Shown here: one piece after another, positions 8,468 through 23,604 of the stretch
Layout: every line of letters begins with the position of its first letter
How positions within the stretch are numbered: position 1 is the stretch's first letter
Origin: Atribacterota bacterium
GTDB taxonomy: Bacteria > Atribacterota > Atribacteria > Atribacterales > Caldatribacteriaceae
NCBI GenBank assembly: GCA_039638595.1
Contig: JBDIWM010000012.1
Location: 1-45,475 of the forward strand
Direction of reading: 5' to 3'
DNA length: 45,475 bases
Program-made: the position numbers and the translations under genes
The notes under the pieces: generated by a model
Database searches by the model: none
Told to the model about the DNA's origin: nothing
The model's input: only the letters and a program-made list of their open reading frames with translations

Positions 8468-9385
8468 TCAAACACCCACTTTTTTGAGTATCCCATCCAC
8501 GAACTGCTTGGCCCGGGGAACATCGGCTTCATCAAGGTGCTCGATAATTAGGGGGATATTGGGATGATTTTTACTCAATCTTCCGAGGTAGAGTTCGTAG
8601 TTGAGGATGCCTAGTCCGGGAGCTGGTAACTCCACCGCCCCCGCACCTCGGAAGGTGTGAGATTCTGGAGCATCCAGTGCAGCGTGTTTCTCCTCAAGGA
8701 TTTCGGCCTTCTTGATGTCTTTGGCATGGGCAATCTTCACCTTGTTTTGAAAGATGTCCACAAGGTCCATGATCCGGTTGAGAGTACCGTCGACATCTTG
8801 AATGGTGCATTCATCGAAAAAGTTGGTGGGGTCTAAAAGCATTCCCAAGCCAGGGTGATAACCAATGTCAGCGAAAAGTCGTATGACTTCATCGATGGAT
8901 CCAATGACGTTGTTGACGTAATTTTCCACCAGAAAAACAGCTCCAGAATCGTAGGCGAGTTGCGCAAGTTCGAGGATTATTCCCCGTGCTTCCTCGTATC
9001 CTTCTTCAGTTTTGTTTTTGGGATGGTGTACCCAGTCACTCTCTGGATTAAACGTTCCGGTTTCACTGACCACGTACGGTGAACCAAGGTCACGAGCGTG
9101 ACGTATCAGGGTTTTTAAGTAGGCGAGGCGTTTCTCTCGTTCTTTGGGATCGGGATGGACGATATTGGTGTACCCTGAAACCACGCAAATCGGTAAATTT
9201 GCCTCTCGAAAGGCATCACGAATCCGCCAGCACTTTTCCCTGGTAATGGCCTCCGGAGTGGAAAAGTCAAAATCCCGGAAAGTGAGGTCGAGCTGAACGG
9301 TGGTGAAGCCCAGCTCTTTAATGCGTTGGATGGTTTGGTGGAGCGAATAAGGAAAGTACCCGTTGAAAATACCCACGTGAATCAT
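8468..9385 (-). CDS. Sugar phosphate isomerase/epimerase-like TIM-barrel protein
   Basis: A 305-residue protein of the xylose-isomerase-like/AP-endonuclease-2 superfamily (IolE/IolI, hexulose epimerase relatives). It has alternating beta-alpha units starting with MIHVGIFNGYFP, and candidate metal ligands in VENYVNN (E), DPTNFFD (D), IAHAKDI (H) and LIIEHLDE (E). ATG 9385 has GGAGGT seven bases upstream; an upstream GTG at 9394 is too close to the SD. It is last gene of the operon, directly after a Gfo/Idh/MocA dehydrogenase. That pairing is typical of inositol-like or keto-sugar catabolism, where the dehydrogenase makes a keto-sugar and this enzyme isomerises or dehydrates it. The exact substrate cannot be read from the sequence. 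Confidence 0.85.
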   Translation of the reverse strand: MIHVGIFNGYFPYSLHQTIQRIKELGFTTVQLDLTFRDFDFSTPEAITREKCWRIRDAFREANLPICVVSGYTNIVHPDPKEREKRLAYLKTLIRHARDLGSPYVVSETGTFNPESDWVHHPKNKTEEGYEEARGIILELAQLAYDSGAVFLVENYVNNVIGSIDEVIRLFADIGYHPGLGMLLDPTNFFDECTIQDVDGTLNRIMDLVDIFQNKVKIAHAKDIKKAEILEEKHAALDAPESHTFRGAGAVELPAPGLGILNYELYLGRLSKNHPNIPLIIEHLDEADVPRAKQFVDGILKKVGV

Positions 9386-9403
9386 CAATATCACCTCCGA
9401 AAT

Positions 9404-10480
9404 CTACGATTCGAGAATTTCCCTTAACGGTACAGCCCGTTTTTCACGATGAGATACGTAACACGCTTCCACCATGGCCATGGTTTTGAGGTTATCGGTG
9501 CCGCTATTTTCCGGCTCAGTGCCTTGTTCCAGGGCTTTCATAAGTTCTCCCATGGTGTACTTGAAAGCTCCAGGAAACCAGGTTTCTTTGAGATCAGGGG
9601 TAATCCACGCTTCACCAATTTTTTTAGAGTAGAAACTCATGGTGCTCGGTCCCCCGGAGGGCCAGCCTATACTCAACTTGGCGACGCCTTCCGTGCCTTC
9701 AATTTTGTAAAAAACGCCGAAACCAGGTGGATCCCAGGTGAAACCATCATCCCAGGCCGAAGCCAGCAGTCCGTCACTGTACTCCAGGATATAGGCTCCG
9801 AGATACTCCCCTTTGTATGGACAACCCGGGTAGGTCGTGCCATGGGCATAAATCCGCTCGGGGAGACCAAACCAGTAACGAAACTGGTCAAGGTGGTGCA
9901 CGCTCATGTTAAGGAACATGAGTCGTTCGTAATCGAGTATGTAATGTTGCCAGTGAGGTTTGAAACGGAGTTCAATAGTGGCAATCACCGGTTTTCCCAG
10001 AAGCCCTCTTTGTAACAGGAAACGGGTGGCCTGAACCGCAGGGTCGTAGCGTCCATTCTGGTTCACCGCTAACGTCACTCCGTGTCGCTGGCAAAGATCC
10101 ACAATCTTTTTTGCATCTTGATAGTTAGTGGCCAGTGGCTTTTGGGCTAAAATGCCCTTTTTCCGGTAAGGAAGAATTTGTTCAATCACTTCAAGTTGGA
10201 GGTGAGGTGGATAAGCAATGTCCACGATTTCCACATCTGGATTCGCAGCAAGTTTCCGGATATCGTCATACACCTGAGGAATTTGGTGCGTTCGAGCCAG
10301 ATCCTCCGCCTGGGCAATGTCTTCAGGACGAGTGGCGATGGCCACCACCTGGTATCCTGCTTCCCGGTATGCTGGAAGGTGGCAGCTCCTCACGATGAAT
10401 CCCGAACCAATAATTCCGATGCCAAAGTCGTTTTTTTTCCCCATTTCCGGGATGTACTGCAGTTCAAAATGGACATCCAT
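9404..10480 (-). CDS. Gfo/Idh/MocA family NAD(P)-dependent oxidoreductase
   Basis: A 358-residue cytoplasmic dehydrogenase. The N-terminal Rossmann fold begins FGIGIIGSGFIVRSCHLPAY, and the family EKP motif appears as AQKPLA (Glu replaced by Gln), with the catalytic-site segment NMSVHHLDQFRYWFG in the C-terminal alpha/beta domain. Family members oxidise a ring hydroxyl of cyclitols or sugars (for example myo-inositol). ATG 10480 is preceded by AAAGGGGG; a TTG six bases upstream is less likely. It lies between the UroD-like gene and the TIM-barrel gene in the same operon. The Gln in place of Glu in the EKP motif is a mild oddity. Confidence 0.9.
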   Translation of the reverse strand: MDVHFELQYIPEMGKKNDFGIGIIGSGFIVRSCHLPAYREAGYQVVAIATRPEDIAQAEDLARTHQIPQVYDDIRKLAANPDVEIVDIAYPPHLQLEVIEQILPYRKKGILAQKPLATNYQDAKKIVDLCQRHGVTLAVNQNGRYDPAVQATRFLLQRGLLGKPVIATIELRFKPHWQHYILDYERLMFLNMSVHHLDQFRYWFGLPERIYAHGTTYPGCPYKGEYLGAYILEYSDGLLASAWDDGFTWDPPGFGVFYKIEGTEGVAKLSIGWPSGGPSTMSFYSKKIGEAWITPDLKETWFPGAFKYTMGELMKALEQGTEPENSGTDNLKTMAMVEACYVSHREKRAVPLREILES

Positions 10481-10512
10481 ACACAAACCCCCTTTACATC
10501 TTCGTTTTCACT

Positions 10513-11775
10513 CTATCGGTACTCGGCTACCGTTTCAAAAAGTGCCAAAAGATTTTCGACTGGAATGTTCGCCTGGATGTTGTGGACACTGGCGAACACG
10601 AATCCTCCCCCTTTTTTGAAAATTTCGATGAGTCGTCGAGCTTCGTTTCGTACTTCTTCAGGTGTTCCAAAGGGGAGAGTGGTTTGCGTGTTGATTCCTC
10701 CACCCCAGAAGGTAAAGTGGTGCCCAAACTCGCGCTTTAGGATTTCTGGGTTCATTGAAGCAGCCGAAATTTGTACTGGGTTGAGGATGTCGAATCCGGC
10801 TTCCATGAGGTCTGGAAGGAGGTCATATACCGCTCCGCAGGTGTGGATGAACGTCTTCCAGGTAGTGTGTTCATGGACCCAGGCGTTGATCTTGGTGTGG
10901 AAAGGTTTAAACAGAGCTTGGTAAAGTTTGGGAGAGATGAAGGACGCGTGTTGTGACCCGAAATCAGCTCCAGATATGACGATTACCTGTATTCGTTCTC
11001 CCACCGCCTGGTGGAACGTTTCGAGGTTTTTGAGACCAATTTCGGTCATGCGAGCAAAAACCTCCTGGAGAAATGCTTGACGGCTCACCAAGGAAATGTA
11101 CCATTCTTCGATGTCACGAATACCCTTGGGTGCTTTCAGGGAGGGTCCAGGAACGAAGGCGATATCTCCCAAATTGGTGCCAGGAACACCTGAAGAAACG
11201 ATCGCATACTCAGTTTCTTCAAAAAGTCGTCGGGATTCGTTCTCAAAGTAGGAGAGTTCCTCTTCGGTAAGAAGGTTGTACTCCTCAATTTGGTCTTCGA
11301 CGCGGAGATTAGTTTCGTCAAATGGTTCCTGGCGAATCAGGGCATCGTGGTAAAATCCTCCTTTGGGCATTTTGGCACATGGAGCACATGACATATCTCC
11401 CTGAGGATACTGACAGATGTCTCCATGGGCTTCAGGAACGGTGTTGAACTTTTCAGGGACCAAGAGGGGAGTGCCATCGAAAAATGTCCAGGGCTTCCAA
11501 TTTTCATTCCGGTACCCAAAAAAATTTGCCTGGGGCATTAACGGCACGGTGTCAATCCCTAAAACTTCGCGCAGGGCGTTGTCCACTTCACCTAACATTT
11601 GGTACGGGTCGACGACTTTGACGGGGTCCTCGGGAGCGATGAGTCCTAAGGCCACTTTTATTTTATGCAGGCTTGAAACGTGGATACCAGTAATCATCGT
11701 CGATCCTAAATCAACGGGTAACTTGTCGGTTTCCTCGTGGTTAAGCGCTCTTATGATCCTTTCTCTTGGTTTCAT
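10513..11775 (-). CDS. Uroporphyrinogen decarboxylase-fold methyltransferase-like protein (copy 1)
   Basis: A 420-residue protein of the UroD/MtaA superfamily, which includes corrinoid-dependent methyltransferases as well as heme-pathway UroD. It opens MKPRERIIRALNHEETDKLPVD, the usual family start. It carries IHTCGAVYDLLPDL (His-x-Cys, two of the zinc ligands of the methyltransferase branch), followed by GFDILNPVQ and FWGGGINTQ. The heme-pathway decarboxylase would not be expected in a sugar operon, and the HxC motif supports a zinc methyltransferase-like or unknown role. The SD (GGAGGAGG) is about 14 bases upstream. A second family member sits in the divergent operon (22423-23604). Confidence 0.82.
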   Translation of the reverse strand: MKPRERIIRALNHEETDKLPVDLGSTMITGIHVSSLHKIKVALGLIAPEDPVKVVDPYQMLGEVDNALREVLGIDTVPLMPQANFFGYRNENWKPWTFFDGTPLLVPEKFNTVPEAHGDICQYPQGDMSCAPCAKMPKGGFYHDALIRQEPFDETNLRVEDQIEEYNLLTEEELSYFENESRRLFEETEYAIVSSGVPGTNLGDIAFVPGPSLKAPKGIRDIEEWYISLVSRQAFLQEVFARMTEIGLKNLETFHQAVGERIQVIVISGADFGSQHASFISPKLYQALFKPFHTKINAWVHEHTTWKTFIHTCGAVYDLLPDLMEAGFDILNPVQISAASMNPEILKREFGHHFTFWGGGINTQTTLPFGTPEEVRNEARRLIEIFKKGGGFVFASVHNIQANIPVENLLALFETVAEYR

Positions 11776-11809: not shown

Positions 11810-12751
11810 CTATATTACACTCTCTTCTCGAGCATACACCAAAAGTAGAATGAGCAGAGCAATACCGTAAACAATTTGTCGTCCCCCTTCTCCCAGATTG
11901 AGGGTGACCAGCAAACTGGAAAGAGCGGTGAGAAAAGTAGCTCCTAGCAAAACTCCTCCATAAGAACCTTTTCCGCCCTGCAGAGAAATACCACCAATCA
12001 CGACGGCAATGATGGAAGGAAAGGTGTAAGCGGCGCCAAGGTCCATGTGGGATGTTCCCGTGTATCCAAGAAGGAGAAACCCAGCGACGGTGGCCATCAA
12101 AGCACTCAGGGTGTATACAAGTACAAGCTGTGGAGCAATGCGTGTACCAGAGAAAAAAGCCGCGACCGGGTTCGCACCGATACCATAAATCCGTTGCCCG
12201 AAACGGCTGTAACGGAGAACCATGGTGAAAAGGAGAGAAAGCCCCAACCAAAAAAAGAGCATGTTGGGAAAACCCAGGCTACGACCGGTACCCAGAGCAA
12301 GGAGGATGTTACTTGCCCTTCCGGTGGGTTGTCCTCCGCATACAATCTGCACAAAACCCTGCACCAAACTCCCCATGCCGAGTGTCATGATCACCGGAGG
12401 GATTCGAACGTAGGCGATGCCAATACCGTTCAAAACACCGAAAAAGGCTCCAGTTCCCAAAACGACTGGGAGTGCGATGAGAAGGCGAAGGTTGTTTCCC
12501 ACGATGAGTTGCGAGCTTAAGACTGCACTTAGGGAAACCAGAGAACCAACGGAGAGATCAATTCCTTCGTTGCCCGAAATCACCACCAGAGTCTGACCCA
12601 TGGCTACGATGCCAAGAAAGGCCGATATTCCTACAATATTGCCAATGTTGGAAAAAGAAGAAAAACCGGGATTGATGAAAGAGCCGAGCAGAAAGAGCAA
12701 AACTATGAGCAGAAAAACCGGAAAATACTGTTTGAACGCATTCTTGAACAC
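11810..12751 (-). CDS. CUT2 sugar ABC transporter permease (RbsC-like), second permease
   Basis: A 313-residue polytopic membrane protein of the branched-chain/ribose permease family, with about 8-10 hydrophobic helices. The motif GNEGIDLSVGSLVSLSAV and the segment AVVIGGISLQGGKGSYGG are diagnostic of RbsC/XylH proteins. The start is GTG 12751, with AGGGGGG eight bases upstream. It pairs with the permease at 12764-13702, forming a heteromeric channel with the ATPase at 13710-15218 and the binding protein at 15272-16318. Confidence 0.93.
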   Translation of the reverse strand: MFKNAFKQYFPVFLLIVLLFLLGSFINPGFSSFSNIGNIVGISAFLGIVAMGQTLVVISGNEGIDLSVGSLVSLSAVLSSQLIVGNNLRLLIALPVVLGTGAFFGVLNGIGIAYVRIPPVIMTLGMGSLVQGFVQIVCGGQPTGRASNILLALGTGRSLGFPNMLFFWLGLSLLFTMVLRYSRFGQRIYGIGANPVAAFFSGTRIAPQLVLVYTLSALMATVAGFLLLGYTGTSHMDLGAAYTFPSIIAVVIGGISLQGGKGSYGGVLLGATFLTALSSLLVTLNLGEGGRQIVYGIALLILLLVYAREESVI

Positions 12752-12763
12752 CTTTGTACCCCC

Positions 12764-13702
12764 CTAACGTCGATATTGGGTCAGCACAGCAAGACCAATG
12801 GCTCCAACGATGATCGTTCCTTTGATGAAGTCCTGATAAAGCGATGGTACACCCACCAAAAGAATAATGTTACTGATAAAAAAGAGAAGTATCGCTCCCA
12901 GCATTGGTCCAATCACACCACCTCTTCCCCCGCGGAGAGAATTGCCACCGATGGCCACAGCCGCAATGGAGGTTAAGGTTACTGGTGTGCCCACTCGAGC
13001 ATCTCCCGAAGCAACAAGACCGGTCAATGCTACAGCCGCCAGGGCCAGAAAGAAACTGCTCAACATGTAGGTCATAAGGATGACCTGACGGTGATCAATT
13101 CCCGAGAGAACGCTGGAGATGCGATTTCCACCAACTGCATAGATTTTTCTCCCTAAGGGTTTTCGCACCGTCAACCACCAGATGAGAAGTGCTACAACGA
13201 TAAGAAAAAGAGGTAAGGGGAATTGTAGACGTCCGCTCTGAAAGAGCCGATAGAGCCATTTTGGGACGTGTCCTCCCGGTTGAGGCATGATGAGGAGGGC
13301 TATACCGCTCCAAACGAAGGCGGTGGCAAAGGTGGTCACGATAGGGGGAAGGCGTAAGTATCCCACGAAGTACCCGTTGACCATGCCTCCTAGAAGGGCA
13401 ATCGCAAAGGCGATGATGATACCAGCAAGAACGCTGCCCAGTGTGTTTTGGAAAAGGGTTGCCATAACGACGTTGAGGAGCGACAGCATTGCCCCGGTCG
13501 AAAGGTCGATGTTACCGCTCAAAATGACTACTGCCTGGGACATCGCTACGAGCACAAGAGGCGTGAAGGTGCTGAGATTGGAGTAGAGAACACGATAAGT
13601 AAGGACACGAGGTTGTAGGTACACGTTAATGGAAAAAATGACCAGAAAAACGAATAAACTGGAAAGAGCAGGATAGTTTGAAAAGTGCCAGGATTTTTTC
13701 AT
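12764..13702 (-). CDS. CUT2 sugar ABC transporter permease (RbsC-like), first permease
   Basis: A 312-residue multi-pass membrane protein with the family motifs SGNIDLSTGAMLSLLNV and AIGGNSLRGGRGG. The frame is open upstream to 13771, but ATG 13702 lies seven bases after the ATPase stop with a TGGTGAG-type SD overlapping that stop. The product then begins MKKSWHFSNYPALSS, and the upstream extension overlaps the ATPase. It forms the translocation path with the next permease. Confidence 0.92.
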   Translation of the reverse strand: MKKSWHFSNYPALSSLFVFLVIFSINVYLQPRVLTYRVLYSNLSTFTPLVLVAMSQAVVILSGNIDLSTGAMLSLLNVVMATLFQNTLGSVLAGIIIAFAIALLGGMVNGYFVGYLRLPPIVTTFATAFVWSGIALLIMPQPGGHVPKWLYRLFQSGRLQFPLPLFLIVVALLIWWLTVRKPLGRKIYAVGGNRISSVLSGIDHRQVILMTYMLSSFFLALAAVALTGLVASGDARVGTPVTLTSIAAVAIGGNSLRGGRGGVIGPMLGAILLFFISNIILLVGVPSLYQDFIKGTIIVGAIGLAVLTQYRR

Positions 13703-13709
13703 GTTTTTC

Positions 13710-15218
13710 TCACCATTCCACACATAAACTCGATGCAATGAGCCGACTTTCGCATATTTCTTCGGTATCAACTTCGTCTACGATCCGGCCACCGTACATG
13801 ACGAGCACTCGATCACAATTTTCAATTAGTTCTCGATTATCACTGGCAAAAAGGATAACACTTAAACCTTTTGCCCGCATGGTGTGGATGAGGTCGTAAA
13901 TTTCTTTTCTTGCTCCAACATCAACTCCTTTGGTTGGGTCGTTGAGAAGGATGATGCGGGGCTGAAGTGTAAGCCATTTGCCGATAACCACTTTTTGTTG
14001 ATTTCCTCCACTCAGGTAACGGACTTGTTGGTCTAAATGGGCATAGACAAGGCGAAGTTGTTCGAAGGTTTCTTTCGCTTTTTGCCTATGGTCGGTGTAT
14101 GGGACCCATCGTTTTTTCGAAGTATTCAAAGAGGGATAGAAAAAGTTAAAGAGGATGCTCTGTTCCAGAAATAGCCCTTCTTTTTGTCGATCGCCGGGGA
14201 TGAGAACAATGCCGGCATTGATGGCTTCAGACGGATGGGAGAAATGAGTTTCCTGACCATTGAGCTTTATGGTTCCTGAACTTTTGGATATTGCTCCAAA
14301 GAGGGCTAGCAGAACCTCTTCTTGACCGTGACCCTGTAAACCACCGATGCCTAGGAATTCACCCTGACGGAGGGTCAGAGAAATATCTTTGACTTTATCG
14401 CCCACCTTGAGATGGATGACTTCTAAGATCGTCATTGGAGTTTGTTTGGTTGTTCCAGGCTCGGGACAAGATTTTTTCTGCTCGCTCTGTTCCACTTCAC
14501 CGACCATGAGTTCCACGATTTTTCTTTGGTCGCAGTGGTTGTTTCGAAGATCGATTTCTCCTGCGTTCTTTCCATTTCGGAGCACCGCTACTCGGTCGCA
14601 AATCTCGATAACTTCATTGATACGATGGGAAATAAAAATGATGAGTTTCCCCTTTTCTCTCTCTTCTCGAATCGCTTCGAATACTTGTTTCACCTTTTCA
14701 TGGTCTAAAGAGGCGGTGGGCTCGTCCAAAAGGAGAACGTTTGGGTCCCAGGACATGGCTTTGATGATTTCCACCATTTGACGAAGGTCGGGAGATAGTT
14801 TTTCGACTTTGAGGTTTACATCGATTGATAAGCCAAATTTTTGTAGCCATTTTGCCGTAAAGGCCCGAGATTGCTGGTTGTCGAGTAATTTTCTCGGTGT
14901 GAGGAATTCGTGGTCCAGCACGACGTTTTCCCAGATGCTCATGCTTTCAATCAAGCTCAAATTTTGGTGGGCCATAAGGATTCCCAGTGCTCGAGCCTCC
15001 CGAGGATGATGGAATTGTACCCTCTGTCCATCGATCGAGATGTTTCCCAAATCGGGACGAATGGTGCCCGTAATAATACGCGACAGGGTGGTTTTCCCTG
15101 AACCGTTGGCGCCCACCAGTCCCAAAATTTCACCACTTTGGCAAAAGAGGGAAACCCCACCTAAAGCTTTGATTGCTCCAAAACTCTTCTCTATCCCATC
15201 AATGCGTAATTCTCTCAT
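13710..15218 (-). CDS. CUT2 sugar ABC transporter ATPase, duplicated nucleotide-binding domains (RbsA/MglA-like)
   Basis: A 502-residue cytoplasmic ATPase with two ABC domains. The first has Walker A GANGSGKTT and Walker B VLLLDEPTASLDHE with a weak signature (LSPDLRQ). The second has a degenerate Walker A (GLQGHGQEE), the signature LSGGNQQKV and an unusual Walker B, ILLNDPTKGVDVG, in which Asp-Glu is replaced by Asn-Asp. Asymmetric sites are common in this family. ATG 15218 is preceded by GGGAGG. A stem-loop (15232-15259) ends just before the SD. It energises import by the two following permeases. Confidence 0.95.
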   Translation of the reverse strand: MRELRIDGIEKSFGAIKALGGVSLFCQSGEILGLVGANGSGKTTLSRIITGTIRPDLGNISIDGQRVQFHHPREARALGILMAHQNLSLIESMSIWENVVLDHEFLTPRKLLDNQQSRAFTAKWLQKFGLSIDVNLKVEKLSPDLRQMVEIIKAMSWDPNVLLLDEPTASLDHEKVKQVFEAIREEREKGKLIIFISHRINEVIEICDRVAVLRNGKNAGEIDLRNNHCDQRKIVELMVGEVEQSEQKKSCPEPGTTKQTPMTILEVIHLKVGDKVKDISLTLRQGEFLGIGGLQGHGQEEVLLALFGAISKSSGTIKLNGQETHFSHPSEAINAGIVLIPGDRQKEGLFLEQSILFNFFYPSLNTSKKRWVPYTDHRQKAKETFEQLRLVYAHLDQQVRYLSGGNQQKVVIGKWLTLQPRIILLNDPTKGVDVGARKEIYDLIHTMRAKGLSVILFASDNRELIENCDRVLVMYGGRIVDEVDTEEICESRLIASSLCVEW

Positions 15219-15231
15219 TTTTTTCCTCCCT

Positions 15232-15259
15232 CTCCCCTCTCCGGAAATGGAGAGGGGAG
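15232..15259 (-). promoter_or_regulatory. Stem-loop between binding protein and ATPase genes
   Basis: Perfect 11-bp stem, arms CTCCCCTCTCC and GGAGAGGGGAG around a six-base loop, located between the binding-protein stop and the ATPase SD. No U-run follows on the minus strand, so it is more likely an mRNA-processing or stability element than a terminator. Similar elements occur at the other three importer operons. Confidence 0.7.
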
Positions 15260-15271
15260 AACCTTAATCGA

Positions 15272-16318
15272 TTACTGAAAAAGGGCGTCCAGTTCTTCTT
15301 CGGTAGGAATCTGATCCAAGAAATACGAATCCTCTTTATCCTTCACCGTCTCGTAGAGCTGGTCAAAGTTCTCGTTAGTCACGACCATGACCGGGATATA
15401 GTAGTATTTCCCGTCCCGAAGAACACCGGGTTTGAATTGTTTTCCCTGGAGAAGCCGCACGGCAAAACCCAGCCCTAAGGCTCCAGCCGCACCTGGAGGA
15501 TTGGTAATACCGATGGTATCAAAATCCATTTCATCCTTGAGCCGTTTCCATTCTCTCAGGAAGGCCACCATGGTCTCTCCAGTGAGCACTTTTGGCAAAG
15601 TTTGACCCGAAGCTAAGTATGCACGGATCACTCCCAGGGCCATTCCATCCTGGGACTGAACTCCATCAACGTCCGGATGCGCAGCCAGGAGGTTGGACAT
15701 CACCTGTTGTGCCCTGGCTTGATCCCAATCACCGTTTGCTGTGGCCACAATCTGAATTTCCGGATAGTTCTTATAAACGTCGGTCGCTCCTTTGACTCTT
15801 TCCACGTTTGCCGGATGACCGGCTAACCCGTCAATACGAATGATTTTTCCTCGACCATTGAGTTTTTCAACCGTCCACTCGGCAAGTTTCTTCCCCCACT
15901 CGTACTGATTGATGGTGACGTTACAGGCCACTTCTTCGCTCGTCACTGGCTGGTCAATTGCCAAAACCAGAATTCCTCGAGAGACGGCTTCCTCAATGGC
16001 TGGGTTCAATGCATCTGGAGAGTTCGGGTTTAAAAGAATTGCATCGGGTTGCATGTTCATCAAGTTGCGAAAGTCAGCAATTTGAGCCTGAATGTCGAGG
16101 CCAGAGTTTTTGACGATGATTCGGTCCACGATACCCATTTCCTGGTACTTCTTTCCCAACTCTTCGATTGCAGCGATCATTTGGGTTCGCCAGCTATTTC
16201 CAATATACCCGTTACTGACTGCAATCACAAACCCCTTTCCCAGTGCCACCGCTGTGAAAAGCGTGACGGTGAGGAAAATTCCCAGGAACCATACCATTCC
16301 ACTTTGCTTTTTTACCAC
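15272..16318 (-). CDS. CUT2 sugar ABC transporter substrate-binding protein (RbsB-like)
   Basis: A 348-residue periplasmic-binding-protein-type-4 family protein. A Sec signal peptide (KK followed by MVWFLGIFLTVTLFTAVALG) leads into the mature start FVIAVSNGYIGNSWRTQ. The two-lobed fold shows the typical MQPDAILLNPNSPDALNPAIEEAVSRG and DQARAQQVMSNLLAAHPDVDGV segments. The start is GTG 16318, with GGGGGTAGGG upstream. It is the first transport gene, 79 bases after the LacI-SBP fusion gene and apparently co-transcribed with it. The ligand is probably a pentose, hexose or cyclitol; it cannot be specified from sequence. Confidence 0.93.
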   Translation of the reverse strand: MVKKQSGMVWFLGIFLTVTLFTAVALGKGFVIAVSNGYIGNSWRTQMIAAIEELGKKYQEMGIVDRIIVKNSGLDIQAQIADFRNLMNMQPDAILLNPNSPDALNPAIEEAVSRGILVLAIDQPVTSEEVACNVTINQYEWGKKLAEWTVEKLNGRGKIIRIDGLAGHPANVERVKGATDVYKNYPEIQIVATANGDWDQARAQQVMSNLLAAHPDVDGVQSQDGMALGVIRAYLASGQTLPKVLTGETMVAFLREWKRLKDEMDFDTIGITNPPGAAGALGLGFAVRLLQGKQFKPGVLRDGKYYYIPVMVVTNENFDQLYETVKDKEDSYFLDQIPTEEELDALFQ

Positions 16319-16397
16319 GTGACCCTACCCCCTTTTTGATTGTTGATTGACCACCAAAACTGACTGAAAGACCTGGCTCTGGACGTTACGCTGCACA

Positions 16398-18653
16398 TCA
16401 CCTCCTTACGTAGTGGAAGGAAAAGGCATTCATCATCTCCTGTGCCTTTTGAAGGGCCTGTTTTGGGTTCGTCTGCCCATGGAGGGCTTCTTGAATACAG
16501 CACCCAATCACGTGCTCTAAATACTTCTGTTCCACAACTTCAATTCCCAGATGCGGAACTGCCGCTCTTTTCTTAGTTTTGGCGAAAGCCTTTTCTGCTA
16601 ACCGAGCCCAGGGGAGGGCACGAACCAGTTCTGCAGACTGGTACACGCTGAAGTGGGCGGTGCAACCACCAAGGAGTGAGAAAGGAATGGCAAGCTCTGA
16701 GGAACATCCCCAGCGAATGAATTCAAAAGCAGCGTCGACGTATCGACTCTTGGCATGAATTCCCAGTGACCAGCCACCGAGCACCGAAACCCTTCCAGGA
16801 ACTTCTTCAATGCCGACTCGATCGTAGACTCTGGATGACTGATGATGGAACGCCAGATTCACGTTGGACGTAAACATCACCATCATGGCTGCTTTGCCAT
16901 TGGCGAAATGTTCAACCTGTTTTCCCCACCAGTTACTGGGTGGTGGCGCGTAGTGGAATGTTTCAAGGTACGCCCGTAGGGCTTCGACTCCCTGAGGGGA
17001 CGCAATCGTGGGGTGACCAGTGCGGTCAAAAATTTCCCCTCCGTAACTCCAAAGACGGGGAAGGAATTCACACATGATGGCGGTGTCGTTCAGTGCTCCG
17101 ACTGTGGTTCCGTACTCTACCGGAGAATGAGGATTGAATTGTCGGGTGAAAAAACGAGCAACCTGGTTGTAGGTGTCCCAGTCACCCGGGGGTACCAGTT
17201 CTTTTTTATATTGATCGTAAAATAGGGTTTTCATCCGACCATCTTCGAAAAGGTCGCGTCGATAGAAGAGGAGTTGCACTCCAAAATAAAACGGTATCGC
17301 AAAGTAGCGCCCGTTGACCAAGGCGTAGCTTTCTAAGACTCCAGGAATAAAGCCGTAGAAGGGTTCGGAAGTCAGGGAAATCATGGGTGTGAGGTCATAG
17401 AGACGATTGGCATACACACACTCTGGTAGCCAAGAGACATCCACCATAAACACATCGAATTCGCTTTCCGGGTTTTTCATCACTTCTTGATACAGTTCTT
17501 CGTAAGGGAACGCTTGTAAAAACACCTTGGTTTTAGAACGAGCAAGGAAATCTTGGATCAGAGACTGGATGGCATCGTAGCAGGGGTCAGACAGCATAGC
17601 CACTCGAATCGACACAGTCGATTTTCTTGGTCGTTTTATGCTCAGAGAATCTTTTTGGACGAAAAAGCGTTCCAGATATACCGGGGTTACCTCTCGGCGA
17701 GGGCGGTCCACCAGACTCTGGGTTGCCTGCACCAGCATTTCGGCAGCCCGGCGTCCAATTTTAAGACCAGGACGACTGATTTCTACTACGTTGCGACTCT
17801 CTTTGACGGCTTTCCAATTTTCTCGGCCTAAATAGTAGACTTTAGTGGCGAGACCCAAGTAATCTGAAGCGTCAATGATTGCCCTGGCATGAACGTGATT
17901 GGTTGCGACGACATGGCTGACATCAGGGTTATCCCGCAAAATCGGGAAGAATTTTTGAAATGCAGCTGTCCACCCTAACGGAGCGTCAACATGGATTACC
18001 AAGGAGGCTAACGTATCGAGTTCGCTGAGAAAAGTTTCGTAGAAGATCTGCTCGCAGAAAAAAACACGGCTTGCAGTAAGGAAAAGGATTCGACGAACAT
18101 GTTTCTCTGCGCGGAGCAGAGAAGCCGTGAATAGGGCTAACGCCTGATAATCAGCCGAAAGGAAGTTTCCTCTATGTTCGAGGGCATCGAGCGGTACCCG
18201 ATCGATGCATACCCAAGACAGAGAAGTCTCTTGTAAGCGGTCGAAAAAGAGAGTTTCCTGGACTGAGGAAGGGATACTCGCCATACCGGCCATTCTCTGT
18301 TGAACAATTTCCTGAAGCGCTCGCTCCTCGTTTACCCAAAGGTCCTGGGTAAGAAACAGGGTAAAGCCATAGTCGTGGTTTTTAAGAAAGTCATCAAATC
18401 CCTGAACAATCTGGGCATAGTACGGTTCTTCGAGCGTCGGTACAATCAGACCAAAAGTAGGAGTCAGCTGGGATTTTAGGGCTCGAGCATGAACGTTGGG
18501 CCGAAAATCGCATTGCTGGAGCACTTCTTCAACTTTGCGACGACTCTCAAGACTCACTTTTTTCGGATTATTCAGAACATTGGAAACCGTTGCCGGAGAA
18601 ACCCCGGCTATTTTGGCGATATCTCGAATGGTTACTCGACCAGAGTTCTTCAT
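16398..18653 (-). CDS. LacI-family repressor fused to an extracellular-type (MalE-like) solute-binding domain
   Basis: A 751-residue protein with three modules. Residues 1-60 are a LacI helix-turn-helix (RVTIRDIAKIAGVSPATVS, then RPNVHARAL). About 64-335 is a LacI-type effector domain (TFGLIVPTLEEPYYAQIV onward, ending VYLERFFV). About 347-745 is a complete family-1 solute-binding fold (YFAIPFYFGVQLLFYRRDLFE, LWSYGGEIFDRTG, FANGKAAMMVMF, VLGGWSLGIHAKSR). There is no signal peptide or membrane segment, so the binding fold must work in the cytoplasm, presumably as a second sensor. Normal LacI proteins are about 330-350 residues. A longer frame to TTG 18719 overlaps the -35 TTGACA of the promoter, so ATG 18653 is the start, although no SD is visible. 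It leads the operon down to 8468. Confidence 0.9.
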   Translation of the reverse strand: MKNSGRVTIRDIAKIAGVSPATVSNVLNNPKKVSLESRRKVEEVLQQCDFRPNVHARALKSQLTPTFGLIVPTLEEPYYAQIVQGFDDFLKNHDYGFTLFLTQDLWVNEERALQEIVQQRMAGMASIPSSVQETLFFDRLQETSLSWVCIDRVPLDALEHRGNFLSADYQALALFTASLLRAEKHVRRILFLTASRVFFCEQIFYETFLSELDTLASLVIHVDAPLGWTAAFQKFFPILRDNPDVSHVVATNHVHARAIIDASDYLGLATKVYYLGRENWKAVKESRNVVEISRPGLKIGRRAAEMLVQATQSLVDRPRREVTPVYLERFFVQKDSLSIKRPRKSTVSIRVAMLSDPCYDAIQSLIQDFLARSKTKVFLQAFPYEELYQEVMKNPESEFDVFMVDVSWLPECVYANRLYDLTPMISLTSEPFYGFIPGVLESYALVNGRYFAIPFYFGVQLLFYRRDLFEDGRMKTLFYDQYKKELVPPGDWDTYNQVARFFTRQFNPHSPVEYGTTVGALNDTAIMCEFLPRLWSYGGEIFDRTGHPTIASPQGVEALRAYLETFHYAPPPSNWWGKQVEHFANGKAAMMVMFTSNVNLAFHHQSSRVYDRVGIEEVPGRVSVLGGWSLGIHAKSRYVDAAFEFIRWGCSSELAIPFSLLGGCTAHFSVYQSAELVRALPWARLAEKAFAKTKKRAAVPHLGIEVVEQKYLEHVIGCCIQEALHGQTNPKQALQKAQEMMNAFSFHYVRR

Positions 18654-18719
18654 AAAACGTTTTAAAACCGTTTTATACTTCGTTTTTAAAATAGTATAAA
18701 GGAGATTAATTTTTGTCAA
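18654..18719 (-). promoter_or_regulatory. Promoter and tandem operators of the LacI-SBP operon
   Basis: Minus-strand TTGACA (18719-18714) and TACTAT (18696-18691) are 17 bases apart. Between the start of transcription and the ATG lie two abutting palindromes, AAAACGTTTT (18654-18663) and AAAACCGTTTT (18664-18674; near-palindrome). Their centres are one helical turn apart. They look like LacI-family half-site pairs around a central CG and are well placed for autorepression. Confidence 0.72.
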
Positions 18720-19227
18720 GGAGTATTTAAAAAATCAAATAATTAATAAAAGGTGTTCACGAGATTTTGAAATGATTATAGTAAGTTTTCAACGATGCCG
18801 AGGGGCTTGTAGTTCTTTGGTTTAAAGGTTCATTTTTATCGCAGTGAGCATGTCTTTATCTAAACGATTGCGCTGGTATCGATTTATTGAGGGAAAAGTC
18901 TCTTTACAACCATCTTTACTGGTCTGGTTCGGGATACCTGTGCGCCTTTTAATTTTTTGAGCTTTGTCAGAATTTTCACTGCTTCTTTGTGCAGTATAGA
19001 GAAATAGAGGTTCCTCTTTTCATATCCGTGAGAAAGTTTTCCAGAATCGACTCACCTGTGAAATGATGAGGGGAAAGAATGATCCGTGTAATGTTTCATG
19101 GAATGGATATTCTTCAAGGCCGACCCCTTCGGTCTTGTACCGATGGTAATCGGGGGGACCCCGCTTTTTGCTGATCTTTCCTTTTTGAAGCACTGGAAAC
19201 GGAGTCCGATTTATTTCTAAAACATCT
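18720..19227. other. Long divergent intergenic region with terminator-like structure
   Basis: No protein-coding gene is supported. At 19140-19168 the plus strand can form either CCGAT-ggta-ATCGG (19140-19153) or CGGGG-gga-CCCCG (19151-19163) followed by CTTTTT. These are mutually exclusive, and the second is terminator-like. Another small hairpin lies at 19120-19134. This could end a short plus-strand RNA made from the upstream 400 bases; no known riboswitch class was recognised. Confidence 0.4.
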
Positions 19228-19261
19228 AATGTTGACAAACATTAATAGTCTTCATTAAAAT
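19228..19261 (+). promoter_or_regulatory. Promoter of the MalEFG-type operon with operator over the -35
   Basis: TTGACA (19232-19237) and TAAAAT (19256-19261) are 18 bases apart. An inverted repeat, AATGTT (19228-19233) / AACATT (19238-19243) with a GACA centre, overlaps the -35 box, the placement expected for a repressor site. It differs from the AAAACG-type sites in front of the LacI-SBP gene. Confidence 0.72.
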
Positions 19262-19292
19262 TAATTCATTATATATTTAAGGGGGGATACAT

Positions 19293-20598
19293 ATGAAAGG
19301 AAAAGCTTTGGTGGACTGGGTTTTTTTGTGTTGTTTTGCTTTCCCTCGGTGTGGGGATGGTCCTTGCCGCAGAACCCGACTTCAGTAAAGTTCCTGCTGC
19401 ACCCAAGCCAGAAAAACTCACCGTGGTTCTCTACGAGCCAGTAGAGCAAAAGGCTGCCCTGGAAGTAAGCAAGCTCTTTGAGCAGCAATTTGGAATCAAG
19501 GTGGAAGTGAATGCTATTCCCTGGGCAAATCTCCACGAAAAAATCATCGTTGACCTTACTGCTCGGACGGGAACGTACGATATTATTTTCATCCCAGGCT
19601 TGTGGTCTCTGGAGTTCATCTATGCAGGCTATATCGAACCTCTCAATAAGTATTGGAACGACCCTAATCTCCCGCGTTTTGACATCGAAGACTACCCCCA
19701 AAGCATTGTGAACCTGCTTACCTACCAGGGGAACACCTATTGGATTCCCCATCACGGAAGCACCCAAGTCCTCTTTTATCGTAAGGATCTCTTTGAACAA
19801 GCAGGGGCAACGCTGCCTGCGACATACGACGACTTGTTTGATTTAGCAAGTAAGTTCACCAATAACCCCAATTTTCCCGATGTATGGGGCTTTGGTACGA
19901 CTCCAAAACAGGGAGAGTGGGCTTCAAGCACCTGGAGCACCTGGCTTTGGTCGTGGGGTGGAGAGTACTTTGACGAGCAATGGAATCCCATTTTTAATGA
20001 CCAGGTTGGAGTCGATTCTCTTAAAGCTTACGCGGAAGCAGTGAATAAATTCTCTCCTCCTGATGCGCCGAACTGGGGTAACGAAGAATCTGGTGCAGCC
20101 TTTCAGCAAGGGCGTTTGGCCATGCTCCAGATGTGGCCCTACCTGGGAGCTGCGATGGAGGATCCCACCCAGTCTAAAGTAGTCGGAAAAGTTGGTTATG
20201 CACCGATGCCCAAAAAGGTGAAGCGAGTTCCACGGTTGGGTTCGTGGGGAGGGACGGTGTCGGCATTCTCCAAGAACAAAGAATGGGCGTACATGTGGTT
20301 GGCTTTCTTCAACTCCAGGGAGATGGTGGAGAAAATCCACGTTCCTGAAGGAGTTCCGGTATGTCGCCTTTCAATCATTCAAACCTTGGAATCGCAAATT
20401 CCTTGGCAAAGAGCAGTAAATATCAGTTTTGAGGATACCAAAGAAAGACCTGGAATACCTGAAATCTCTTCCATCATCGATGTGTGGGGACTTGCCGTTT
20501 CTAAGGTGGTTACAGGGCAGGCCGGTGTCAAGGATGCTCTGGACGAAGCAGCGGTCAAGGTGAGAGAAATTCTCGACGAAGCCGGTTACTACAAATAA
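19293..20598 (+). CDS. CUT1 ABC transporter substrate-binding protein (MalE-like), signal peptide frameshifted
   Basis: A family-1 extracellular solute-binding protein. The mature part (AAEPDFSKVPAAPKPEKLTVVLYEP onward) is intact, with the blocks YWIPHHGSTQVLFYRKDLFE, WLWSWGGEYFDEQWNP and GGTVSAFSKNKEW. ATG 19293 has AAGGGGGG eight bases upstream, but its frame leaves the mature frame at a run of seven T (19321-19327). Removing one T restores a normal signal peptide beginning MKGKALVDWVF and a protein of about 434 residues. Without it only a TTG at 19336, with no SD and half a signal peptide, is available. This may be a sequencing error or a phase-variable tract. It is followed by a strong stem-loop and two permeases. 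Confidence 0.9.
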
Positions 20599-20651: not shown

Positions 20652-20664
20652 AAAATTGAATGCC

Positions 20665-21547
20665 ATGGCTGAGAAAAGGCTTACTCCTTACATAATGCTT
20701 TTACCCATATTAGTCGGTCTATTCATACTGGTGTATTTTCCGCTCCTTAGCACTCTTTTCTTATCGTTTGTGAGGTATTTTTTGAATAAGCCAAATATTC
20801 CTATGCAGTTTATTGGTCTCAAAAACTATGTGAGCGTATTCTCCCACCCCGACTTCTGGCAGGCCCTCAAAAATACCTTGATTTTTATGCTCGTTTCCAC
20901 TGTGCTCTCGATCTTTATGGGCCTTATCATTGCCATCCTCTTCAATAGGGATTTCACGGGGAAGAATGTTTTCCTCTCCCTGATTCTGCTTCCCATGATG
21001 GTTGCTCCGATCGCTTCGGCTCTTTGCTGGAAATTCCTCTTCGATGGGCAGTGGGGGGGCAGTGAACTACTTTGTCCAGTTTTTTGGAGGCACGAGGCAG
21101 GCTTGGCTTGCGGATCCGCGTTTTGCCCTCTATGCTGTCGCAGTTGCTGATATCTGGCTCTATATTCCCTTTGTCTTTTTGGTTCTGTATACTAGCCTCC
21201 AGGTTATTCCGAATGAGCCCTTAGAAGCAGCCCGTATCGACGGAGCGACAGGATGGCAGATATTCATGAGGATTATTTTCCCGCTCCTTATCCCGAGCTT
21301 CCTTCTTATCCTCATCATTCGTCTGGTGGATACGTTTCGGGTCTTTGACCTTGTGTATGTGATGACCAATGGAGGGCCGGGGGGAAGAACGGCGACGCTA
21401 GGATTCTTAAGCTATGAATGGATTTTCCGACACTTCAATATGGGAAGAGGTTCAGTAATAGCCATTTTCATTCTTGGTGCGGTAATTCTTATATCCTGGT
21501 ATTTCATCAAAGTCTTGCAATTGCAATTTCTTGAACAGGTCAAATGA
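20665..21547 (+). CDS. CUT1 ABC transporter permease (MalF/UgpA-like), frameshifted at a G7 run
   Basis: A MalF-type permease of about 293 residues with six helices. It starts MAEKRLTPYIMLLPILVGLF and has the cytoplasmic coupling (EAA) loop EAARIDGATGWQIFMRIIFPLL. The reading frame breaks at seven G (21053-21059): the upstream frame runs on to a meaningless tail and stops at 21150. Deleting one G joins WKFLFDGQWG to AVNYFVQFFGG and continues to 21547 without interruption. Both halves are well conserved in style, so the gene was functional recently or is functional with a corrected read. It partners the next permease; no ATPase gene is in this operon, so a shared MsmK/UgpC-type ATPase elsewhere is implied. 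Confidence 0.88.
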
Positions 21548-21565: not shown

Positions 21566-22402
21566 GTGAAGGGCCCTGAGTCGAAAAGCCTGCTCTGGTG
21601 GATAGGATTCTACAGCGCACTTTGCATCATTGTTTTCTTTGTCCTCTTTCCCATTTTCTGGATTGTGACGACTTCCCTTAAGCAAAGAATCGATGTATAC
21701 ACCGAAAAACCGGTGCTCTTTTTCCGAGCCACCTTGGAGAATTACCAGCGAGTTTTCCGACTCCAGGATTTTTCCCGATATCTCTTGAATGGTTTCATCG
21801 TTGCCACAAGCACCACCTTCATCATCATGTACTTTGGCGCCCTTGGAGCCTATGCCCTGACGAGGTGGAAATTCCGTGGCTACAATTGGGTTTCTCTGGC
21901 CATCATTGCTGCCCGGATGTTTCCTCCCATTGCCTTGCTCCCTTCTTTCTTCCTTTTTGCTTCACGCTTCGGTATCATCGATACCCGCCAGGTTGTGATC
22001 TTTGCACATTCCACTTATGGCTTACCCTTTATTATCTTCATGCTGGCTGGATTTTTCAGACAAATACCGAGGGACCTCGATGAAGCAGCGCTCATTGACG
22101 GTTGCTCCTATTTCGCTCTCTTTAACCGCATCATGCTTCCCAGTGTTGCCCCTGGGCTTGCCGCAACTGCCATTCTCTCCTTCGTCTGGTCCTGGAATGA
22201 ATTTCTCTTTGCTCTGGTCCTCACCAGGGCTTCTTCTAAAACGTTACCGGTGGTCATTTCCGAGTTCATTGGTTTTGTCCAGGTGGATTGGCAGGGGCTC
22301 ACCGCCATGGCCACTCTTTTGGTGGTTCCCTCTATCATCATCACCTTTTTTACCCAGCAGTACTTAGTAAGGGGTCTTACTGCTGGTGCGGTGAAAGGCT
22401 AA
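21566..22402 (+). CDS. CUT1 ABC transporter permease (MalG/UgpE-like)
   Basis: A 278-residue inner-membrane permease with six predicted helices. It has the MalG-type opening (ending FPIFWIVTTSLKQ) and the EAA coupling loop DEAALIDGCSYFALFNRIMLPSV. The start is GTG 21566, with AGAGGGG about ten bases upstream. It lies 18 bases after the frameshifted MalF-like gene and 20 bases before the UroD-like gene. Confidence 0.92.
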   Translation: MKGPESKSLLWWIGFYSALCIIVFFVLFPIFWIVTTSLKQRIDVYTEKPVLFFRATLENYQRVFRLQDFSRYLLNGFIVATSTTFIIMYFGALGAYALTRWKFRGYNWVSLAIIAARMFPPIALLPSFFLFASRFGIIDTRQVVIFAHSTYGLPFIIFMLAGFFRQIPRDLDEAALIDGCSYFALFNRIMLPSVAPGLAATAILSFVWSWNEFLFALVLTRASSKTLPVVISEFIGFVQVDWQGLTAMATLLVVPSIIITFFTQQYLVRGLTAGAVKG

Positions 22403-22422
22403 TTGTTGAGGGGGTGAAGAGT

Positions 22423-23604
22423 ATGCAGGAAGAAAAAGAAGGAAGGGTCAATAAAGAGGCCTGGGAGACCATCAAGAGGTACTACCTCTATTGGTGGAAT
22501 AATGACTTCTTGGATCGTATTCCTCTCTGGGTGACTGCTCCTAGGGACGATCCCCAATCGCTGGAAATCCTCACTGGGAAAAGTCTCTGGGTCGGTAAGG
22601 AAGAACGATTCGACAGTGAAAAAGTCATTCGAAACGCCCAAGAAATACTCCGAGCAACGTTCTATGGTGGTCTGGCGTTTCCCTGCTACTTTCCAAATTT
22701 TGGGACTGATGTGTTCTCTGCATACTTAGGGGCCGAAATTGAGTTCTCCGATTCCTTTCCACCCGTTTCCACTGGACCTTCGTTCATCAAGGAGGGTGTC
22801 ATCCCAGTTTCCTGGGCAAAGTGGGGTCACCCTGTGCTCACTGACTATACCGATCTCTCCCAACTGCGCATCCACGAAGACGGTGTGTACTGGCAGAAGA
22901 CCAAAGAGTTCGTTACTCGGGTCTTAGAAATTTCACGAGGGGAATTCTTTGTGGGTGCCACCGACATCCACCCCAGTATGGATGCTCTGGCGGTCTTGCG
23001 CGGGAGCCCTCAAAACCTCTGCCTCGACCTTGTCGATAACCCGGAGGGGGTTAAGAAAGCCATGGTTTTCCTCTGGAACGCCTGGGTGAGGGTTTATGAG
23101 GAGACTTACTACAGTCTGATTCTCGGCCAACAAGAGGGAACTACTGCCTGGATTAACCTCTGGGCGCCAGGGAAGTTCTACCCAGTGGAAAATGACCTCT
23201 CGCTCTTGATTTCCACCGACCTATACCGAGAATTCTTCCTGGAGGAATTGGTGAACGAAATCAATTATTTAGACTACTCGATTTACCACCTGGACGGAGA
23301 GGGAGCCCTCCACCACCTGGAGATGATTCTTGACATTCCTAAACTGAACGCCGTTCAGTGGGTCGCTGGTGCGGGGGAAAGCACAACCGGGGTAGCCAAG
23401 TGGATTCCTCTCTATCAGAAAATCCAGTCGAGGAGCAAAGCAATCATCGTGTACTGTGCTCCAGGAGAGGTTGAGCTCGTGGTAAGCGCGCTTCGTCCCG
23501 AAGGACTTCTCATCTCGGTCAATTGCGAGAGCGAGAAAGAAGCTAAAGAACTCCTCGGTCACTACGGATGGGAAGGAGTATACTGGTGGCTTCAGGAAGA
23601 GTAA
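22423..23604 (+). CDS. UroD/methyltransferase-fold protein of unknown function (copy 2)
   Basis: A 393-residue protein of the UroD-like superfamily, starting MQEEKEGRVNKEAWETIKRYYLYWW at ATG 22423 (SD GAGGGGGTG). In place of the His-x-Cys zinc motif of the methyltransferase branch it has YHLDGEGALHHLEMIL (His-x-Asp), followed by LNAVQWVAGAG, so metal binding and chemistry may differ from copy 1. Its place as the last gene after a sugar importer repeats the arrangement in the divergent operon. This suggests a common but undefined step in carbohydrate metabolism, not heme synthesis. Confident of the fold family, not of the function. Confidence 0.75.
   Translation: MQEEKEGRVNKEAWETIKRYYLYWWNNDFLDRIPLWVTAPRDDPQSLEILTGKSLWVGKEERFDSEKVIRNAQEILRATFYGGLAFPCYFPNFGTDVFSAYLGAEIEFSDSFPPVSTGPSFIKEGVIPVSWAKWGHPVLTDYTDLSQLRIHEDGVYWQKTKEFVTRVLEISRGEFFVGATDIHPSMDALAVLRGSPQNLCLDLVDNPEGVKKAMVFLWNAWVRVYEETYYSLILGQQEGTTAWINLWAPGKFYPVENDLSLLISTDLYREFFLEELVNEINYLDYSIYHLDGEGALHHLEMILDIPKLNAVQWVAGAGESTTGVAKWIPLYQKIQSRSKAIIVYCAPGEVELVVSALRPEGLLISVNCESEKEAKELLGHYGWEGVYWWLQEE

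Follow-up and report, generated by a model that had tools for sequence, protein, structure and literature searches.

A recurring fusion of a LacI-type regulator with a MalE-type solute-binding domain and its likely place at the head of a CUT2 importer operon in an Atribacterota genome

A 45,475-base stretch of DNA from an Atribacterota bacterium (assembly GCA_039638595.1, contig JBDIWM010000012.1, positions 1 to 45,475), called here the window, encodes a 751-residue protein in which a LacI helix-turn-helix (HTH), a type I periplasmic-binding-protein (PBP-I) core and a complete MalE-type solute-binding protein (SBP) domain, of the type II fold (PBP-II), follow one another in a single gene (16398..18653, minus strand). 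The frame, Pfam, NCBIfam, AlphaFold and colinear homologues all point to this composition. The LacI-SBP fusion is a recurring family distributed across five named phyla, and not a one-off. We regard it as fairly probable that the protein is a LacI-type autorepressor heading a CUT2/URO-D operon, with the cytoplasmic MalE-type domain as its main ligand sensor.

The frame runs from an ATG at 18653 to a TGA at 16400-16398, with 751 codons and no internal stop; an alternative upstream start, a TTG at 18719, would lengthen the product to 773 residues. A preliminary description of this DNA had reported the uninterrupted frame without giving its strand, and was right as to coordinates and length; its claim that three modules are joined in one cytoplasmic protein agrees with Pfam, AlphaFold, structure matches and hydropathy. 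The HTH (PF00356, E 1.7e-16, 60.1 bits against a cut-off of 27) covers residues 8-53 (18495..18632), and is followed in the AlphaFold model by a hinge helix at residues 54-60. Next come a LacI/RbsB-type PBP-I core, divergent in sequence (residues ~63-328; 17670..18467), a flexible and unconserved linker (residues 329-346; 17616..17669), whose predicted local distance difference test score (pLDDT) falls below 50 at 334-344, and the MalE/TMBP-type domain (residues 347-751; 16401..17615), all on the minus strand. The model, computed from an alignment of 66 fusions, reaches a mean pLDDT of 89.3 and a predicted template-modelling score of 0.84, and contains both an alternating alpha/beta core as in LacI and the whole SBP domain.

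The LacI and SBP_bac_1 matches anticipated for the window protein are present, the latter (PF01547) at residues 360-649 with E 1.7e-19 and 71.4 bits against a cut-off of 26, whereas the anticipated Peripla_BP_3 gives no match in the Pfam scan of this protein. The only Pfam match on the core is Peripla_BP_1, at E 0.0014 and below its cut-off, and the NCBIfam PurR model spans residues 8-333 with a score that is also below cut-off. The N half was folded separately, because the Foldseek and VIA rows obtained with the whole model cover almost only the SBP half; alone, it matches CcpA, PurR, LacI and RbsR across ~310-345 columns. Since the root-mean-square deviation (rmsd) to whole LacI-type regulators is large, ~8-18, against ~3 for core-only rows (RbsB, CcpA cores), the placement of the HTH relative to the core is not reproduced. 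Taken together, the span of the PurR model, the AlphaFold core and the N-half matches indicate that the PBP-I core is present and, as modelled, complete, despite its divergence from the Pfam models.

The SBP half resembles known binding proteins closely. Superposing residues 344-745 on 5iai gives Z 46.0 and rmsd 2.0 across 379 residues (VIA), and on maltose-bound T. maritima MalE3 (6dtq) Z 44.9 and rmsd 2.0; for the named family-1 SBP structures Z lies at 42-46 and rmsd at 2.0-2.5. No signal peptide or membrane stretch was found at the junction, where the top 19-residue hydropathy is 0.67 (1.18 across the whole protein). As a control, 46 of 50 stand-alone SBP frames, duplicates included, reach at least 1.6 within their first 60 residues. 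Because the junction lacks the hydrophobic stretch that these stand-alone proteins carry N-terminally, the fusion protein should remain in the cytoplasm.

Recurrence of the fusion was established by a profile scan of GTDB species genomes, which used only the SBP-half alignment of six fusions, proteins that align end to end, and a nine-residue PBP-II pattern. A contig scan with the window protein alone as query found no relatives; the six-fusion alignment succeeded, giving 483 confirmed relatives (587 matching stretches). The counts that follow refer to the best 80 of these, the other 403 standing outside them, and the size of the family is therefore a lower bound. The architecture search across genomes proposed in the preliminary description finds the same one-gene fusion in 78 of the 80 loci, as single frames of 720-818 codons with the LacI HTH at or near the N end, and the join falls at the same position in these 78 and in five further records. 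The two loci excluded as fusions are L085, where the contig start cuts the gene, and L126, with a 357-residue open reading frame starting 67 bases into its contig. The 80 loci belong to Bacillota (68), Spirochaetota (6), Pseudomonadota (3), Planctomycetota (1) and Chloroflexota (1), with one unassigned. Alignment A3 contains the window protein and 65 of the 78 fusions; the family scans have a residue limit, on account of which 13 were omitted, most of them similar to rows retained. PF00356 and PF01547 each match all 66 of its proteins at E 0.01, and at the same threshold Peripla_BP_1, Peripla_BP_4 and Peripla_BP_3 match 47, 44 and 26 of them, respectively. NCBIfam matches of the fusions are mostly to LacI-family models; no model reached its cut-off in the three fusion proteins for which cut-offs were shown.

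Searching plasmids with tblastn revealed full-length, one-piece homologues in Rhizobium rhizoryzae (95% covered, E 7e-88), Proteus mirabilis and E. coli plasmids; in 51 of the 2509 matching records a single place contains 80% or more of the query, and E. coli accounts for 27 of the 30 records listed. The gene is present in 46 of 5426 complete E. coli genomes, with 44 of the 46 places being plasmids. One Proteus record in the plasmid collection (L051, NZ_OL790811) is 4.08 Mb long with only 45 listed features, and looks like a chromosome, and two unverified 'Bacteriophage sp.' records (L053, MT836780; L054, MT837991), in which the fusion lies beside ordinary-looking bacterial metabolism genes, may be bacterial contigs. 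Most listed deposited records of fusions carry the label 'extracellular solute-binding protein'; the LacI-SBP fusion is already in public genomes, unrecognised. As for the window's own phylum, 23 of 50 genomes match at E 1e-40 or better, and the sole fusion is that of the window's genome; the further matches listed are non-fusion frames of 420-521 residues. A plausible origin of the window gene would be transfer from Bacillota or Spirochaetota.

Trees of the two halves were built with a quick method, and both place the fusions on one side of a branch with an SH-like approximate likelihood ratio test (SH-aLRT) support of 99. Filtering at 60% identity left 58 of the 84 fusions for the SBP-half tree, which also has 22 of 50 stand-alone SBPs; the LacI-half tree has 40 of the 84, picked by hand, together with all 18 stand-alone LacIs found. 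This topology is consistent with one fusion event and subsequent spread; a single origin is not proven, because most of the stand-alone controls belong to the window's phylum. The stand-alone SBP closest to the fusions (G017, L045) sits one gene away from a LacI-like gene.

A full-length tree of 75 fusions, omitting 9 near-copies of the 84, splits into two clades with a support of 100 each. Among the 34 rows of clade A, which includes the window, 24 adjoin CUT2/URO-D genes, 4 CUT1 genes and 6 no recognised neighbour; among the 41 rows of clade B, 26 adjoin GDPD or iron-type ATP-binding-cassette (ABC) genes, 3 MBL/MgtC genes, 5 CUT1 genes, 7 no recognised neighbour and none CUT2/URO-D. These labels come from tblastn and were assigned by priority, CUT2/URO-D first, the window being labelled by hand; locus lengths vary (median 13.2 kb), and a missing neighbour is weak evidence. 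The clade B gene names derive from record annotation (MBL fold, MFS, MgtC/SapB) or from reading of the sequence (GDPD, iron/phosphonate-type ABC), and not from a family search. Across all 85 loci, CUT2 (ATPase plus permease) occurs in 21, URO-D in 18 and both in 14, and GDPD in 28, an iron-type ATPase plus permease in 20 and both in 16; CUT2 never accompanies GDPD, nor does the iron-type pair accompany URO-D. GDPD is found in no clade A locus, and the iron-type pair in one, L077. On the Proteus mirabilis and E. coli plasmid records (L051 5816-11196; L052 5314-10640), the fusion is divergent from a shared block of MBL-fold, MFS and MgtC/SapB genes, named by annotation in the E. coli plasmid and by likeness in Proteus.

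The window repeats the clade A pattern. The fusion is followed, all on the minus strand, by an RbsB/AlsB-like CUT2 solute-binding protein (15272..16318; PF13407, NCBIfam below cut-off), an RbsA-like ATPase (13710..15218; Pfam, NCBIfam), two permeases (12764..13771 and 11810..12751; both PF02653), a URO-D superfamily protein which in a family search is nearest to MtaA/CmuA methyltransferases but far below their cut-offs (10513..11775), a Gfo/Idh/MocA oxidoreductase (9404..10486) and a xylose-isomerase-like TIM barrel (8468..9394). Only 79 bases separate the fusion stop from the start of the CUT2 SBP gene, and no terminator-like site was found in this gap. Most likely, then, the CUT2 operon opens with the fusion gene, and an operator at the start of that gene would serve all of it; the link to the downstream importer made in the preliminary description is supported, and conserved linkage agrees with it. 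The CUT2, Gfo/Idh/MocA and TIM-barrel neighbours make a sugar or polyol derivative the probable ligand of the window protein. A 28-codon frame (16398-16312, minus), possibly a coupling peptide, has an ATG that overlaps the fusion TGA (TGATG) and follows an AGGAGG at a distance of 2 bases; its end overlaps the CUT2 SBP start.

Abutting the start codon of the fusion lies a tandem palindrome, AAAACGTTTT/AAAACCGTTTT (18654..18674, no strand), which is a candidate autoregulatory operator. Upstream of it stands a promoter-like TTGACA-17-TACTAT (18691..18719, minus; 10/12 match), a kind of pair about as common in shuffled sequence (7 found, 4.3 ± 2.0 expected in shuffles). On the minus strand, AAAACGGTTTTAAAACGTTTT directly abuts the fusion ATG, downstream of the promoter-like pair; the complementarity of its 12-base arms is 92%. 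The ATG has no Shine-Dalgarno-like sequence ahead of it within 18653-18684 (minus); the tandem palindrome occupies that place. A search of the 2.13 Mb genome for the 21-base tandem site, with up to 3 mismatches allowed, finds it only at the fusion start, where it matches itself on both strands; TAAAACGTTTTA has a single exact match in the genome, and 4 places within 1 mismatch against 22 for its reversed control. Within the window, AAAACNGTTTT is not enriched (5 against 3.48), and AAAACGTTTT within 1 mismatch is found 10 times against 3.45, above any of 100 shuffles, a second exact copy lying at 37061-37070, inside a response-regulator/AraC gene (36843-38459).

The family as a whole shows related sites. 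In upstream regions, taken as 200 bases ahead of the start together with the gene's first 40 and with counts inflated by near-copies, 21 of 79 fusions have a CG-centred palindrome of at least 7/8 pairs; 100 shuffles gave 1.57 on average and never more than 4. An AACGTT core is present in 31 of 79 (5.5 in shuffles, largest 11), namely in 24 of the 35 clade A regions and 7 of the 44 clade B regions; AACGTG/CACGTT is found in 13 of the latter 44. The motif ATTGGAACGTGTCAAT is found within 4 mismatches in 32 of 79 regions against 2.4 in shuffles, a count that is circular, the motif having been derived from the same regions. For the division of the AACGTT counts by clade and for the residue counts below, clade membership was assigned by hand from the tree, L108 and L115, which lie outside it, being placed by likeness.

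Control of the divergent CUT1 importer, also suggested in the preliminary description, was not borne out: the operator-like tandem site is found in the genome only at the fusion's own start, and a palindrome scan of 15200-19400 gave no comparable site before the CUT1 operon. Of the CG-centred palindromes of at least 6/8 pairs in that interval, a single one, at 18651-18666, has AACGTT as its core, and 18120-19400 contains no other CG-centred 16-mer with at least 6/8 pairs. Such control stays conceivable, the window's nearest relative, L059, adjoining CUT1 genes.

Which of the two binding folds senses the ligand can be approached through conservation. Columns at least 80% identical number 47 of 399 in PBP-II, 6 of 266 in PBP-I and 19 of 58 in the HTH and hinge. 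The canonical pocket residues of the PBP-I core are replaced: Arg at the position of window F204 is found in 83% of the 18 stand-alone LacIs and in 0% of 40 fusions; for the leading Asp of the GFDD motif (G276 in the window protein) the figures are 94% and 10%, respectively. Both positions are presumably sugar contacts. Since these hallmark positions are replaced, one main sensor, the SBP domain, appears at least as likely as the reading of two ligands. Within the SBP domain, Asp405 is 98% conserved and aligns with the MDV Asp of TMBP (1eu8). Trp628, in the GGW loop (codon 16770..16772, minus), aligns with the GGW-loop Trp of SmoF, 5iai, GacH and TMBP, which are solved sugar-binding proteins, and, as judged from alignment end points only, falls on W287 of an alpha-glycoside-binding protein whose W287A/F mutants are named in titles of deposited sugar complexes. 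All 30 clade A rows have Trp at position 628, and 34 of the 36 clade B rows have Gly; the position belongs to the four columns with a clean switch between clades (at least 75% in each), namely 12 and 60 (HTH/hinge), R294/L (PBP-I) and W628/G (PBP-II). We read PBP-II as the ligand sensor, with a pocket that would be tuned to the operon, Trp accompanying CUT2/URO-D and Gly accompanying GDPD/iron-type genes.

We infer the ligand and allostery of the fusion regulator, and with them dimeric DNA binding, repression rather than activation, the ligand class and the allosteric route, in the following form. A fusion dimer, formed via the HTH and the PBP-I core, would bind the tandem palindrome beside its own start, blocking transcription of the fusion gene and the CUT2 genes. 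The imported sugar, or a product of it, would then enter the cytoplasmic SBP domain and cause it to close, and the closed domain, attached at the C-terminal end of the core, would loosen DNA binding. In LacI, this end of the core carries the tetramerisation helix. The PBP-I core would act mainly as a dimer scaffold, or bear a retooled second site. More tentatively, it may be proposed that in this widespread and so far undescribed family a MalE fold moved to the cytoplasm by a single ancient fusion took over sensing from the LacI core, and that Trp628/Gly separates a sugar-responsive clade (CUT2/URO-D) from a phosphodiester/phosphate-responsive one (GDPD/iron-type).

The best-placed alternative, which we nevertheless hold to be unlikely, is a dual-input regulator, in which PBP-I and PBP-II would each bind a ligand, for example a substrate and a catabolite, and DNA binding would integrate both. 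It draws on the completeness of the PBP-I fold and on R152 (88%; nearly invariant in alignment A4) and E201 (68%), which are kept in the fusions and lie outside the columns conserved in stand-alone LacIs; because these two residues are retained, a retooled second ligand site in PBP-I is possible. The clade switch R294/L also falls in PBP-I, which may thus bind something too. Set against this are the replaced canonical pocket positions and the far smaller number of constrained columns in PBP-I than in PBP-II. Quite improbable, in turn, is the explanation that the SBP domain is a protein-interaction module, contacting for example the cytoplasmic side of the importer or its ATPase and reporting transport instead of sensing a ligand. 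Signalling systems using solute-binding proteins do exist, and family members adjoin three kinds of importer (CUT2, CUT1 and iron-type); however, the nearly invariant Asp405 and the clade-dependent residue 628 fit a choice of ligand better, and the importer types vary whereas the SBP domain does not.

An autorepressor sensing through its SBP domain has further observations to contend with, in addition to the R152, E201 and R294 residues already mentioned, and all of them count against it. The conservation of PBP-II is partly structural, and is inflated by the loci having been found via a PBP-II pattern. The linker is unconserved and floppy, so that the coupling between domains is left unexplained. 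As for the clades, 10 of the 34 clade A rows are without a recognised CUT2/URO-D neighbour, locus L077 matches both CUT2 and the iron-type ATPase/permease, the window protein has a long branch (1.34) in the full-length tree, and it carries the clade B letter at the HTH switch, residue 12. With respect to location, 10 of 84 fusions reach a hydropathy of at least 1.6 somewhere, for instance L064 at the junction (1.64), and the high stretch of L090 falls in an apparent too-early start. Concerning the operator, the reversed control pattern of the 21-base site also gives one match within 3 mismatches, and the window's own 16-base palindrome has 6/8 pairs, a value reached by 16% of its shuffles; the argument for a local operator therefore rests on the tandem form and its rarity.

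That an assembly artefact or chance read-through joined a LacI gene to an SBP gene is practically out of the question, because 78 of 80 homologous loci share the single-frame architecture, with five further records joined at the same place. An arrangement that makes such a join imaginable is found in G000:C34 and relatives, where a CUT1-type SBP gene follows a LacI gene ~60-100 bases on and in the same frame, with stops between; the C34 pair retains its stops and a signal peptide-like start. Open frames of 808-859 residues in G000:C34, G002, G009 and G005 were considered as paralogous fusions and rejected: translation of those in G000, G002 and G005 gives a LacI gene, stops and then an SBP gene in the same frame, and the open-reading-frame list of G009 also shows two genes. 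In G000:C34 (L038 10081-12516), which belongs to the window's own genome, the SBP gene begins 60 bases behind the LacI gene, in the same frame, and this order is common to relatives; it is an arrangement from which fusions could arise.

The divergent CUT1 genes beyond the fusion include a solute-binding protein (19336..20598, plus), noted as context and with no sign of control by the fusion. The first CUT1 permease (20656-21547, plus) is split over two overlapping frames of 164 and 181 codons, and the gene looks frameshifted or mis-sequenced. The protein encoded behind the permeases (22288-23604, plus) matches neither Pfam nor NCBIfam models at E 0.001.

If the proposed reading is true, the extracellular binding proteins of databases include a class of mislabelled cytoplasmic transcription factors, and the operons around CUT2/URO-D and GDPD importers are left without their regulator. 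The fusions would also represent a natural counterpart of engineered regulators, with a MalE-type pocket coupled by evolution to a LacI core; how a second Venus-flytrap domain drives LacI allostery would become directly testable, and modular biosensor parts could be obtained from them.

The fusion can be compared with several known systems. A comparative survey of LacI regulons describes LacI transcription factors as an HTH plus one effector-binding domain (PMC4052901). Like the LacI/GalR factors CcpA, RbsR, PurR and LacI, the fusion has an HTH, a hinge and a PBP-I core of the same topology, and CG-centred palindromes lie upstream of many members; unlike them, it continues for ~400 residues past the single PBP-I core as a second, PBP-II domain, and its canonical PBP-I pocket residues are replaced. 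Because a complete SBP domain follows the core, the fusion is best described as a variant of the LacI/GalR family, and not as a standard member. With CUT1 family-1 SBPs (TMBP 1eu8, MalE3 6dtq, 5iai, SmoF) it shares the complete fold, the GGW loop and Asp405, and differs from them in lacking a signal peptide and in being joined to a DNA-binding protein. The homologues WP_165137324.1 (Rhizobium rhizoryzae plasmid) and WP_032176963.1 (E. coli plasmids) are full-length and colinear, and 31% and 24% identical to the window protein, respectively; their neighbourhoods differ from that of the window, and their annotation as 'extracellular solute-binding protein' misses the LacI half. LysR-type regulators carry a small PBP-II effector domain directly behind a winged HTH and sense their ligand inside the cell. 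Intracellular ligand sensing of the PBP-II type would be common to them and to the fusion, with the difference that LysR-type proteins have no PBP-I core. In keeping with the preliminary description, open-licence PubMed Central (PMC) papers yielded no characterised regulator class with this architecture and no description of a natural LacI-SBP fusion. The closest parallel in design is that of engineered allosteric regulators in which, to judge by the title (PMC6079105), binding domains have been joined to LacI-type DNA-binding parts; those regulators are artificial, whereas the fusion described here is natural and retains the LacI core.

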